From IMG/VR virus record IMGVR_UViG_3300019776_000961, positions 1 through 64,000 of that record: DNA of 64,000 bases; one strand, given 5' to 3'. The stretch is from a virus. Both the position numbers and the translations under genes were made by a program. The notes under the pieces are model-generated. The model made no database searches, was not told the origin of the DNA, and saw only the letters and a list, made by a program, of their open reading frames with translations. Positions 16,690 to 45,259 of this stretch are shown in pieces; the stretch's first letter is position 1, and each line of letters begins with the position of its first letter.

Positions 16690-16784
16690 CCACCTGTAGT
16701 TTAATGGTAGAACCCCTGTTTTATACACAGGTTTAGCTGGGCGACACTGGCAAAGTGCAGGTTCGAATCCTGCCAGGTGGACCA
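16690..16784 (+). tRNA. tRNA with anticodon UAU and a long variable region
   Basis: Acceptor CCACCTG pairs with CAGGTGG, followed by ACCA. Anticodon stem CCTGT/ACAGG has loop TTTATAC, giving UAU (Ile, AUA codons). The variable region is 25 bases, class II-like, which normal tRNA-Ile lacks. Discriminator A and long arm suit a Leu-type body better, so amino-acid identity is uncertain. Confidence 0.7.
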
Positions 16785-17866: not shown

Positions 17867-18193
17867 ATGGCAAAACAATATATACTAAAAGATATAGATT
17901 CTAAAGCTAAGGAGCTAAAGAAGTCTCTTAGGAAAGCTCATAAAATTATTGAGCGTGCTCAAAAGAGAGTATCAAGAACTGGTAAGGATAAGTCATTGCT
18001 CAAAGCAGCATGTGAGCTTGGATTTATCTGCAACAATGCTCCTATCACTAAAGATGGTAAGAGGTATGTTAATCCTATGACATCTGGTGATAAGCTTTTT
18101 CTTGAAGAAATGGGTACGTACAAGTGTATTGAATTCAAACAAAACGAATTTTTAGATTGCACAGGTAAGCAAGTTCATCTAGAATGGTATTGA
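17867..18193 (+). CDS. Hypothetical protein (108 aa)
   Basis: 108 residues: basic helical N-terminal half (KELKKSLRKAHKIIERAQKR), then a mixed C-terminal half with Cys at ACELGFICNN and YKCIEF. It abuts the previous gene and ends 24 bases before the intron-containing tRNA. Family unknown. Confidence 0.6.
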   Translation: MAKQYILKDIDSKAKELKKSLRKAHKIIERAQKRVSRTGKDKSLLKAACELGFICNNAPITKDGKRYVNPMTSGDKLFLEEMGTYKCIEFKQNEFLDCTGKQVHLEWY

Positions 18194-18217: not shown

Positions 18218-18466
18218 GGCAGTGTAGTCCAACGGCAGAGACAAGCGACTTATAGTAATTGAGCCTTATAGGAGGAATCTTATAAGTGGATCCCGCTAAG
18301 TCGGTGAAGGTATCGAAAGATAATAACGCCGAGCTAGCAGGTCGAAAGACCGGGCAAGTGTAGAGACTTTACACGGGATACCCAGAACGGGTAAAGACAA
18401 AGTCCAAGCACCGAAAGGTGTACGAAAATCGCTCAAGTGTGGGTTCGAATCCCACCACTGCTACCA
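18218..18466 (+). tRNA. tRNA-Leu(UAA) interrupted by a group I intron
   Basis: 5' exon 18218-18251, 3' exon 18425-18466. The joined exons give acceptor GGCAGTG/CACTGCT, D-arm with GG, anticodon arm AGCGA-CTTAAAA-TCGCT (anticodon UAA), T-arm GTGGG-TTCGAAT-CCCAC, then ACCA. The split is between U34 and A35, as in cyanobacterial tRNA-Leu(UAA). The variable loop is only five bases, so the body is class I, unlike normal bacterial tRNA-Leu. Confidence 0.82.
18252..18424 (+). other. Group I intron in tRNA-Leu(UAA)
   Basis: 173 bases. The 5' part (TAATTGAGCCTTA) matches the known Anabaena tRNA-Leu intron, including the guide GAG that pairs with exon CUU to leave the U-G pair at the splice site. The P2 hairpin (CTTATAGGA/TCTTATAAG) keeps pairing although its bases differ. 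Core elements GCAAGTGTAGAGACT and GGGTAAAGACAAAGTCC correspond to P7/P3/P8 strands. The intron ends in G. It carries no ORF; an HNH gene begins 43 bases past the tRNA. Confidence 0.82.
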
Positions 18467-18495
18467 TATTTGTTTTAATTAAAGCACGTGTCTAC

Positions 18496-18508: not shown

Positions 18509-19117
18509 ATGGATAAAAAATGTACATACAAATGCGGTAAACCAGGAATATACCGTCTAAGAGACGGGTCATGGCGCTGTAGTAAGTGGAGCAATAGTTG
18601 CGAGGCTATACGCGAGAAAAACCGTAAAGGGGTAACGCGTGCTCATAGAGAGGGTAAGTGCAAATCCTTTACTGATGAGCATAGAGCTATTACCATTAAA
18701 AACCGTAAAAATAAAGTGATAGAAGATCTTTTTACTGAAGCTAAAGCAAAGTATCGCTCTAACCACTATCTAAAGAAGATTGTGCAAGATTTCGATCTAC
18801 TGCCTTGGAGATGCTCGTGCTGTGGTATTGATAGCTGGCAGGGAAAAAATATTACTTTAGAGCTTGATCATATTGATGGGAGCGCACATAATTGTAAATT
18901 AGAAAATCTAAGACTACTTTGTCCTAACTGCCATTCGCAAACCGACACTTTTCGAGGTAAGGGCATTAATGCAGGTAAGAAAAAAGTCTCTGATGATGAA
19001 TTAAAGGAAAGCTTAAAAAATTCAAAAAATATTAGACAAGCTCTCATTAATGTAGGGCTTTCACCGAGAGGTGGCAACTATACAAGGGCCCTTAAGCTTA
19101 AAAATTTAGCTTGCTAA
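18509..19117 (+). CDS. HNH homing-type endonuclease
   Basis: 202 residues from ATG 18509, fixed by the late octamer (the upstream GTG at 18488 is not needed). RCSCCG, then LELDHIDGSAHN and LRLLCPNCHSQTDTF form the HNH nuclease core with two CxxC zinc knuckles. The N-terminus has another cysteine cluster (CTYKCGKPG...WRCSKW). The C-terminal helices (RQALINVGLSPRGGNY) may bind DNA. It follows the intron-containing tRNA and shares its core with the HNH gene at 20303, suggesting two homing genes of one family. Confidence 0.8.
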   Translation: MDKKCTYKCGKPGIYRLRDGSWRCSKWSNSCEAIREKNRKGVTRAHREGKCKSFTDEHRAITIKNRKNKVIEDLFTEAKAKYRSNHYLKKIVQDFDLLPWRCSCCGIDSWQGKNITLELDHIDGSAHNCKLENLRLLCPNCHSQTDTFRGKGINAGKKKVSDDELKESLKNSKNIRQALINVGLSPRGGNYTRALKLKNLAC

Positions 19118-19371: not shown

Positions 19372-19447
19372 GCGGACGTGGCTCGACAAGCAAGGCAACG
19401 GTCTCCAAAACCGTCATATGTAGGCGCGATACCTACCGTCCGTGCCA
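19372..19447 (+). tRNA. tRNA-Trp(CCA) with altered elbow
   Basis: Acceptor GCGGACG/CGTCCGT, anticodon arm ACGGT-CTCCAAA-ACCGT, discriminator G, encoded CCA. The T-loop is CGCGATA instead of TTCRANN and the D-loop has no GG, so the standard D-loop/T-loop contacts are missing. Confidence 0.82.
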
Positions 19448-20302: not shown

Positions 20303-20821
20303 ATGATATCTAAACTCGAATCATTTAAAGACGATGTAATACGAATGTATGTTGAAGAAAGAATGACATGTAAGCAAATTGGTTTAAAATTCGGTCTCAG
20401 ACCAAATCCTGTATCTCATTTTCTTACTAAACACGGTGTAGAACTTCGATCACGTGGCTTGCAAAAAGGCAGACCCGGCACAACAAAAGGAAAAAAGTTT
20501 ACTGAAAGAACCACTGATTACAATAATCAACTTATAGAAAGCGGTGAATATAAAAAATTACACGAAGCAGGTATAAGAAAAAGAGTACGTACATACTTGA
20601 TTAACAAGTACGGGCATAAGTGCCAAATTTGCGGTTTAACGGAATGGATGGGTGTCAGAATACCGCTTGTCTGTGACCACATAGATGGGTCAGCAAAGAA
20701 CTGTGAATTAAAAAATTTTAGAATAATTTGTAATAACTGCGATTCGATTTTACCAACATACAAAGGTAAGAATCGTGGTAACGGCAGAAAGTTAAATGGA
20801 AGCTTGGCTGAGCTGGTTTAA
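20303..20821 (+). CDS. HNH homing-type endonuclease
   Basis: 172 residues. The N-terminal 45 have a helix-turn-helix look (MTCKQIGLKFGLRPNPVSHFL), followed by a basic linker and an HNH core: CQICG, VCDHIDGSAKN, FRIICNNCDSIL. It shares DHIDGSA-x-NC-x-L and the TYKGKN/TFRGKG tail with the HNH at 18509. Its last eight codons lie inside the tRNA-Ser gene that starts at 20798, so its 3' end is made of tRNA sequence. Confidence 0.8.
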   Translation: MISKLESFKDDVIRMYVEERMTCKQIGLKFGLRPNPVSHFLTKHGVELRSRGLQKGRPGTTKGKKFTERTTDYNNQLIESGEYKKLHEAGIRKRVRTYLINKYGHKCQICGLTEWMGVRIPLVCDHIDGSAKNCELKNFRIICNNCDSILPTYKGKNRGNGRKLNGSLAELV

Positions 20822-22179: not shown

Positions 22180-22770
22180 ATGTCTCACCTAAGAAAGGAA
22201 ACTGTTTTAGTTCTCAATCGTAGCTGGCAAGCCATTCATACAAAGTCTCCCATGGAAGCTTTTACTATGATGTATCAAGACTCAGCTACTGCTCTCGATA
22301 TTCGTGGAGTTGATGTTATGGTGCCCCTTCGTTGGAAGGATTGGGTAAATCTGCCGTATGATGAGAATGCTAACTATATTAAGACAATAAATGGAGAGAT
22401 AAAGATTCCGACTGTTATCGTTCTCTGTGAATTTGATCGGGTACCTATGAAGCGTCCGAAGTTTACGTCTAATAACCTTTGGGAACGCGATCAGGGTATA
22501 TGTCAATATACTAACAAGAAGCTATCGAGGTCGGAGGCAAATATTGATCACGTCATACCTCGTACTAAAGGCGGTAAGACCAATTGGACAAATTGCGTTA
22601 TTTGTCATAAGGAAGTAAATGCGAAGAAAGGACCTCGTACACCTGAGGAGGCTGGTCTTAAGCTCATTCGTCAGCCTTCTGTTCCTCGTGCTCTCCCTTC
22701 TACATTCTACATCCGCAATAAACACAATGTTACCGATTGGGATATTTTTCTTAAGGATTTCTCTAATTGA
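22180..22770 (+). CDS. HNH endonuclease, McrA-like
   Basis: 196 residues. VLVLNRSWQAIHTKSPMEA near the start and CQYTNKKLS...ANIDHVIPRTKGGKTNWTN followed by CHKEVNAKKG match the widespread HNH family with an N-terminal VLN-x-x-x-x-x-I strand. The first cysteine pair is altered (CQYT instead of CxYC), so zinc binding may be reduced, while the H-N-H residues remain. It differs from the HNH genes at 18509 and 20303. It lies between tRNA-Leu and tRNA-Arg, and could be a selfish gene or a DNA-processing enzyme. Confidence 0.8.
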   Translation: MSHLRKETVLVLNRSWQAIHTKSPMEAFTMMYQDSATALDIRGVDVMVPLRWKDWVNLPYDENANYIKTINGEIKIPTVIVLCEFDRVPMKRPKFTSNNLWERDQGICQYTNKKLSRSEANIDHVIPRTKGGKTNWTNCVICHKEVNAKKGPRTPEEAGLKLIRQPSVPRALPSTFYIRNKHNVTDWDIFLKDFSN

Positions 22771-44810: not shown

Positions 44811-45259
44811 GGGGGCGTACTGGCTTCGACTTATACTCGAAACTTGTATTGCACGCAGTGGTTGATCACCTGGCCACTATAAAAGGTAATCAAAACATAA
44901 ATGCTAAGACTAAAGTCTCTGCAATCCTTGCCAAGGTAAAGAAGGCAGCTAACACAATCACAGAGTTCTGTCTCTGTGACGAAATGGCTCCTCTCGCTAT
45001 CGCAGCCTAAGGAACCAAAAGGGATCCTATTAAACTTTTGGAAATAATAGTAGGTAGAGTAGTACTTGTGATACTCATAAAATAAGTGCAAGGGGTGGTA
45101 TGTGGTCCTCATTCACACATACAGGTAGGACTCTAAACATGGATAGGTCGCTGGTGCCTGGTTACCTTAAGTCAACCAAAGTACGAAAGCCGGCTAAGCG
45201 TGTAGATGTACAAGCCTAACAGTATAAACACAGGGGTTCGACTCCCCTCGCCTCCACCA
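44811..45259 (+). ncRNA. ssrA: tmRNA (transfer-messenger RNA)
   Basis: 449 bases, one-piece. The 5' end GGGGGCGTACTGGCTTCGAC pairs with CGCCTCC before ACCA, and the T-arm is AGGGG-TTCGACT-CCCCT. A tag reading frame ends at TAA 45008-45010. Taken from GCA 44945 it codes AANTITEF... with Cys-Leu-Cys and ends APLAIAA (21 residues). The same frame is open back to GCA 44921 (29 residues), three bases after AAAGTC, which resembles the usual pre-resume sequence. The alanine-rich end is a normal protease signal. It rescues stalled ribosomes. Confidence 0.92.

Follow-up and report, generated by a model that had tools for sequence, protein, structure and literature searches.

A minimal group I intron in a phage tRNA-Leu(UAA) gene and its candidate partner in collaborative homing, a neighboring HNH endonuclease

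The tRNA-Leu(UAA) gene of a phage is split by a 173-nt group I intron without an open reading frame, and a free-standing gene for an HNH endonuclease begins 45 nt past the end of the tRNA gene. Taking both parts of the claim together, we consider it probable that the intron self-splices and that the neighboring HNH protein promotes its homing in trans. The analysis concerns a 64,000-nucleotide stretch, here called the window (positions 1 to 64,000 of IMG/VR virus record IMGVR_UViG_3300019776_000961); coordinates refer to the window unless another record is named, and the tRNA gene with its intron, the adjacent HNH gene, and the upstream gene described below lie on its plus strand. The proposed partnership of intron and HNH gene is new here; in the open-access literature, with subscription journals outside the scope of the search, no paper was found that describes the intron family or its HNH partner.

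With introns allowed (ARAGORN -i), positions 18218 to 18466 are read as a tRNA-Leu(UAA) gene with an intron after tRNA position 34; this split gene is absent from the results of default ARAGORN, which allows no introns, and of Rfam at its gathering cut-off. The 5′ exon (18218 to 18251) ends in GACTT, the final bases being U33 and U34, the intron occupies 18252 to 18424, and the 3′ exon (18425 to 18466) runs from AAAA to an encoded CCA. The splice junctions fall between 18251 and 18252 and between 18424 and 18425, with CTT and AAAA as flanks and G18424 as the terminal intron base, and they are fixed independently because in the syntenic virus contig L233 the tRNA is uninterrupted and its anticodon arm identical. 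ARAGORN -i joins the exons in silico into a complete tRNA that ends in CCA and has a 5-nt variable loop; it is nearly identical in alignment to the tRNA-Leu of L233 and of cyanophage P-SSM7, which share this phage-type, short-variable-loop exon type and are both intronless there. The Rfam model Intron_gpI (RF00028), in a sensitive search of 401 bases, matches 18242 to 18423 with 42.2 bits (E value of 1.4e-9), which is below its curated gathering score of 50, and in a whole-record search of all 193,220 bases of the virus record the window intron is the sole match. Covariance model R1, built from 21 relatives (cyanobacterial and phage introns) with the window intron left out, likewise gave a single match in a blind search of the 193,220 bases: the window intron at full length (18249 to 18428; 94.9 bits, E value of 3.8e-25), although this is the lowest R1 score among the introns compared. 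The initial annotation had called this a 173-base group I intron in a phage tRNA-Leu(UAA), inserted between U34 and A35 with the CUU and AAAA flanks seen in cyanobacteria, and had proposed a group I covariance-model search as a check; ARAGORN -i, the L233 alignment, RF00028, and the blind R1 search bear out all of this. Membership in the IC3 subgroup is putative: the model compared was R1, which includes cyanobacterial tRNA-Leu introns and matches the window intron at full length.

We built a structural alignment of the window intron and 24 relatives, in which the consensus of the 25 introns has 42 pairs, 32 of them with compensatory changes; with P7 added, 95.7% of cells are paired and compensatory changes occur in 32 of 46 pairs. 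The covariation score is 0.550, compared to 0.183 in shuffles and no more than 0.097 with slid partners. MAFFT shifts the window by one base in P3/P4, where 10 of its cells are counted as unpaired but pair when checked by hand, and by this check every helix of the window intron from P1 to P9 is fully complementary. P1 (18249 to 18263) joins the exon bases CUU (18249 to 18251; C32-U33-U34) to the intron bases GAG (18261 to 18263) with a U-G pair at the splice site, and TTGAG is invariant across the 25 introns. P2 is an 8-bp hairpin (18265 to 18286; 18265 to 18272 with 18279 to 18286) and the first covarying helix of the family; the earlier observation that its pairing is kept with changed bases holds, with 8 of 8 positions paired in the window and compensatory changes in all 6 pairs counted in the family. 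P3 (18290 to 18379) pairs AUCCCG at 18290 to 18295 with CGGGAU at 18374 to 18379 and is the second family helix, with compensatory changes in 6 of its 6 pairs. P4 (6 bp) and P5 (4 bp, with a GAAA loop) span 18301 to 18332, and P6 (3 bp) and P6a (4 bp, with a GAAA loop) span 18333 to 18359, all as paired by hand. The guanosine-binding helix P7 (18365 to 18404), GACU at 18365 to 18368 with AGUC at 18401 to 18404, encloses the 3′ strand of P3 and P8, and P7 and its flanking core are invariant in all 25 introns. P8 is reduced to 4 bp (18380 to 18392, paired by hand) and P9 to a single 5-bp hairpin with a GAAA loop (18408 to 18421), lacking the P9 extensions of the relatives.

These reductions raise the alternative of a decaying remnant, in which P8 and P9 have been trimmed, the intron no longer splices, and the tRNA gene has lost its function. 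The intron is the shortest among the Leu introns compared (173 nt, the others being at least 196 nt), and its low R1 score and its place under the Rfam cut-off point the same way; because the comparison covers these sets alone, we do not claim a length record for group I introns in general. Broken pairs are expected in a decaying intron, however, whereas here the helices are fully complementary, neither the catalytic core nor the splice signals show damage, and the exons add up to a complete tRNA with CCA; we therefore regard decay as extremely improbable. Judged by the modeled structure, self-splicing very likely frees the tRNA-Leu(UAA) precursor of its minimal group I intron. The standard two-step guanosine-initiated reaction would yield a tRNA reading UUA/UUG, and with UUA at 20.3 per thousand codons in the phage record, a UAA-anticodon tRNA-Leu would find use.

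The 193,220-base virus record encodes a T4-type portal, a major head protein, a terminase, and UvsX-like genes, and by this gene content the source is a large T4-like phage. Its gp23 and gp20 share only ∼33% identity with their counterparts in known phages; the top matches of gp23 are cyanophages, and the photosystem reaction-centre genes psbA and psbD were not found in the record. We considered a cyanobacterial host and set it aside on account of the absent photosystem reaction-centre gene and the ∼33% identity of gp23 and gp20. Several other features of the window are noted here in their own right. A 95-nt tRNA-Ile(UAU) (16690 to 16784) has a variable arm that is unusually long for Ile, and counterparts of 93 to 95 nt in L263 and L233. 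A tRNA-Trp(CCA)-like gene (19372 to 19444; 39.5 bits with Rfam) is absent from the ARAGORN results and seems to have a D-loop without the G18-G19 pair. A phage-encoded tmRNA (44811 to 45259; 102 bits with Rfam) adjoins a tRNA-Glu, an HNH open reading frame at 20303 to 20821 overlaps the start of a tRNA-Ser(ACU), and another at 22180 to 22770 gives a profile match to a Cas9d/IscB-like HNH domain.

The window intron belongs to a large intron family of phage tRNAs, represented in at least dozens of dereplicated IMG/VR tRNA genes. A first scan of viral contigs with the pattern TTGAGCCTT..TAAGTGGAT returned 24 chance matches in coding DNA and no tRNA, and of the 19 matches to a stricter pattern one was real (L031). 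Scanning for a D-arm followed by the intron start added other tRNA-Leu(UAA) introns whose host tRNA is of this phage type (L031, L058, L059, L060, and L062), and at least 120 viral stretches match the conserved core, GTGTAGAGACT..ACGG..AGTCC. Among the core matches listed, viral and cyanobacterial together, 103 of 134 lie in intron-bearing tRNA genes, mostly tRNA-Leu(UAA); tRNA-Arg(UCU), Lys, Thr, and more also serve as hosts among the matches listed, with some isotypes uncertain. Isotypes that ARAGORN gave as Tyr(ata), Ser(aga), and the like were attributed to shifted splice calls and discarded, since re-reading the junctions as CTT, intron ending in G, and AAAAT restores the anticodon UAA. 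One contig (L174) carries an intron-bearing tRNA-Arg(UCU) and an intron-bearing tRNA-Leu(UAA) 0.6 kb apart.

A BLAST search of GenBank phages with the window intron gave nothing meaningful, whereas typical introns of the family find Agrobacterium phage Atu_ph07 and huge phages. In Atu_ph07 (L326, accession no. MF403008; 112.9 to 113.2 kb), where no tRNA is annotated, there is a tRNA-Leu(UAA) with a 278-nt intron (168.5 bits with R1), and the 735-kb huge phages LR756501 and LR756503 have an unannotated tRNA-Leu(UAA) intron of 205 nt (212.9 bits). These introns share the insertion site and family of the window intron but differ in their class II tRNA-Leu exons and fuller P8 and P9. A stretch of Pelagibacter phage HTVC120P (accession no. 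MH598807; 19653 to 19807) that lies inside an annotated capsid protein gene is 77% identical to the intron family, and the same type of ribozyme may therefore interrupt a protein gene as well. All phage introns known by 2014 were in protein-coding genes, despite the many tRNA genes of phages (review, PMC3984707). Devoto et al. (2019) subsequently described the tRNA introns of Lak megaphages as “enigmatic,” with no class given in the main text (PMC6784885), and jumbo phages with alternative coding are mentioned as bearers of tRNA introns in a survey from 2026 (PMC13037316). Lak megaphages resemble the window in having introns within phage tRNA genes; compared with them, by description only, the window intron is typed as group I and belongs to a family found across many phages.

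With the cyanobacterial tRNA-Leu(UAA) intron, classic examples of which we recovered from nine cyanobacterial genome loci, the window intron shares the U34/A35 site, the CUU and AAAA flanks, P1 with UUGAG, the P3-P7 core, and the terminal G. It differs in length (173 nt versus 222 to 288 nt in the set compared), in its reduced P8 and P9, in its P3/P4 sequences, and in its exons, which are phage-type with a short variable loop where the cyanobacterial ones are class II. The intron phylogeny places the cyanobacterial introns in a clade of their own with support of 99/95 and the window intron outside it, on a branch 0.91 long; the best tree sets the window intron and that of L031 beside this clade, with support of 70/9. 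The label of a cyanobacterial-type intron was thus apt for the insertion site, for the shared 5′ and core sequence, and for detection by a model of cyanobacterial and phage introns, but not for a place inside the cyanobacterial clade, and the further suggestion of movement between cyanobacteria and this phage lineage stays conjectural, with the window intron outside the clade and its best pairwise identities to phage introns. Direct gain from a host tRNA-Leu(UAA) gene would account for the common site, 5′ sequence, and core, and it fits the position of the window and L031 introns next to the cyanobacterial clade in the best tree, where a clade of the window intron with the cyanobacterial ones is not rejected. 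That position is supported at 70/9 only, however, and the phage-type exons, the closer identity to phage introns, and a record free of psbA and psbD, so that no cyanobacterial host is demonstrated, all speak against such a gain, which we consider quite improbable. Spread from phage to phage appears better supported for the window intron than transfer from cyanobacteria.

The gene upstream of the tRNA (17867 to 18193), to which no function was assigned, lies outside the element and serves as a syntenic anchor, with 85% amino acid identity in L233, the closest syntenic relative, and 76% in L263, L199, and L255, which are further syntenic alleles of the locus. Alleles with neither intron nor endonuclease exist in L233, L263, and L199 and, at a related locus, in L295, L231, L220, and L251. 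R1 found no intron in the records of L233 and L263, and no HNH gene of the window family lies beside the tRNA in L233, L263, L199, or L255. The DNA immediately 3′ of the tRNA cannot be aligned between the window and L233, and a joint insertion of intron and HNH gene is therefore not seen directly. Elsewhere in the family, introns that are 90 to 94% identical reside in tRNA-Leu genes with exons of only 53 to 69% identity, including short-variable-loop versus class II exons, and the intron tree does not separate the exon types from one another. One syntenic set combines an allele with intron and HNH gene (L165), two with the intron only (L108 and L143), and four with neither (L295, L231, L220, and L251); its intron alleles carry a different, class II tRNA-Leu, so that here the intron and the entire tRNA gene were exchanged as a unit. 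A second set contains L176 and L118 with both elements and L087, L111, and L153 with the intron only. Comparisons of this kind show an intron family that, as read from its alleles, is mobile.

The free-standing HNH gene (18512 to 19117) encodes 201 amino acids from its ATG, with a possible GTG start at 18488, and matches PHROG 14736 (E value of 2e-32). The protein combines an N-terminal Cys motif (a putative zinc finger), an HNH core, and a C-terminal IRQAL..GGNY motif; the nuclease motif and the Cys-x2-Cys pairs are present, and the Pfam HNH_3 match is weak (E value of 0.005). By eye, the same architecture recurs in L076, L078, L120, L189, and L097, in each case beside an intron tRNA. A peptide-pattern search for close relatives found one viral locus, L045, and no group I intron was found in that record. 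In L097 the HNH gene lies directly upstream of an intron tRNA-Leu, with a second HNH gene ∼1 kb further on. An open reading frame of L142 (528 to 1244 of that contig), 113 nt from an intron tRNA-Leu, joins an N-terminal Cys motif of the window type to what is apparently a Vsr/DUF559-like nuclease domain, possibly the result of exchanging the nuclease behind a common DNA-binding module.

We searched the loci with a hidden Markov model seeded with the window HNH protein; the loci are not independent, and the P values ignore their relatedness. Among the matches listed, 13 of 68 intron tRNAs that have no open reading frame inside the intron have a free-standing HNH gene no more than 60 nt away, but only 5 of 734 intronless tRNAs at the same loci do (odds ratio of 34; Fisher P value of 2e-11, kinship ignored). 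Within 100 nt the counts are 13 of 67 intron tRNAs versus 0 of 81 intronless tRNA-Leu genes (P value of 1.7e-5, kinship again ignored), and in intron-bearing loci an intron tRNA is the immediate neighbor of 14 of the 19 free-standing HNH genes against a random expectation of 0.37, both among the matches listed. Intron tRNAs without an adjacent HNH gene remain the majority (55 of 68 among the matches listed), and the co-inheritance of the two elements is a statistical association in which introns without HNH are common. The adjacent HNH proteins fall into a handful of groups, and their genes lie variously upstream, overlapping the tRNA start, downstream on the same strand at 40 to 46 nt, or downstream and convergent, differences that suggest several origins. 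At least 14 larger tRNA introns (about 680 to 750 nt) carry an HNH gene of the same family inside them, and a weakly supported tree does not separate these forms from the adjacent ones.

The main rival to a partnership holds that this is an ordinary group I intron passed on vertically and that the HNH protein is an unrelated homing endonuclease of the tRNA array, acting in SegB-like intronless homing, its position being a coincidence. Relatives of the HNH gene do adjoin intronless tRNAs in cultured phages, namely tRNA-Leu in Escherichia coli phage ACG-C40 and Aeromonas phage avDM5, tRNA-Leu(UAG) in huge phage LR756508, and tRNA-Asn/Tyr in Gordonia phages, and the HNH can therefore live at tRNA genes without an intron. 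Two apparent cases of an HNH gene inside an annotated tRNA, tRNA-Leu of avDM5 and tRNA-Tyr of Gordonia phage BlueNGold, proved to be overlaps at the tRNA 5′ end with no intron. The window HNH protein is 45% identical over residues 70 to 198 to the ACG-C40 protein, which is annotated as similar to T5 F-TflIV, and T4 SegB and the T5-type HNH genes are, like it, free-standing endonuclease genes in phage tRNA clusters; SegB is a GIY-YIG enzyme, however, and the tRNAs of these systems are intronless. The two further HNH genes of the array also fit a coincidence, but the excess of same-family HNH genes at intron tRNAs over intronless tRNAs of the same loci (13/68 versus 5/734 among the matches listed) and the occurrence of the same family inside related introns make this reading somewhat unlikely.

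A known example of collaborative, or trans, homing is that of cyanophage F-CphI with the psbA intron. The F-CphI and MobE systems have the layout found in the window, an intron without an open reading frame beside a free-standing endonuclease gene; the window differs in that the target is a tRNA gene and in the type of its HNH protein, for which cleavage is a prediction here. MobE acts in this way with a defunct nrdB-type intron (reviews, PMC3984707, PMC2988022, and PMC10448857). On the strength of the arrangement and its recurrence, we lean slightly toward mobilization of the endonuclease-less intron in trans by the HNH protein. The intron itself encodes no endonuclease; when a phage with an intronless tRNA-Leu gene infects the same cell, the HNH protein encoded downstream would nick or cut that gene at or close to the anticodon-arm site, and repair templated by the intron-bearing phage would copy the intron and the HNH gene together. 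A different benefit could lie in protection, the interrupted anticodon loop hiding the tRNA gene or its precursor from tRNA-cutting host defenses or rival homing endonucleases. Anticodon nucleases do target phage tRNAs (PMC10264068), and a site-specific endonuclease would be blocked by an intron at its site; the mature tRNA has a normal anticodon loop, however, so that anticodon nucleases are not avoided after splicing, and we judge protection highly improbable.

The analysis gives phage tRNA biology a typed intron family, located at the site of the classic cyanobacterial and plastid intron and linked to an adjacent endonuclease family. Two questions become testable: how the tRNA-Leu(UAA) intron spreads, and how introns without open reading frames and free-standing endonucleases come together as a composite mobile element. 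In practical terms, intron-bearing tRNA genes are missed by default tRNA finders. We tentatively propose that cyanobacterial-type group I introns have one of their main homes in the tRNA genes of phages, especially those for tRNA-Leu(UAA), that a tRNA-targeting HNH family moves them in trans, and that the adjacent and intron-encoded HNH forms represent a step of endonuclease gain or loss. The cyanobacterial and plastid intron may in that case itself be one branch of this phage-carried family.
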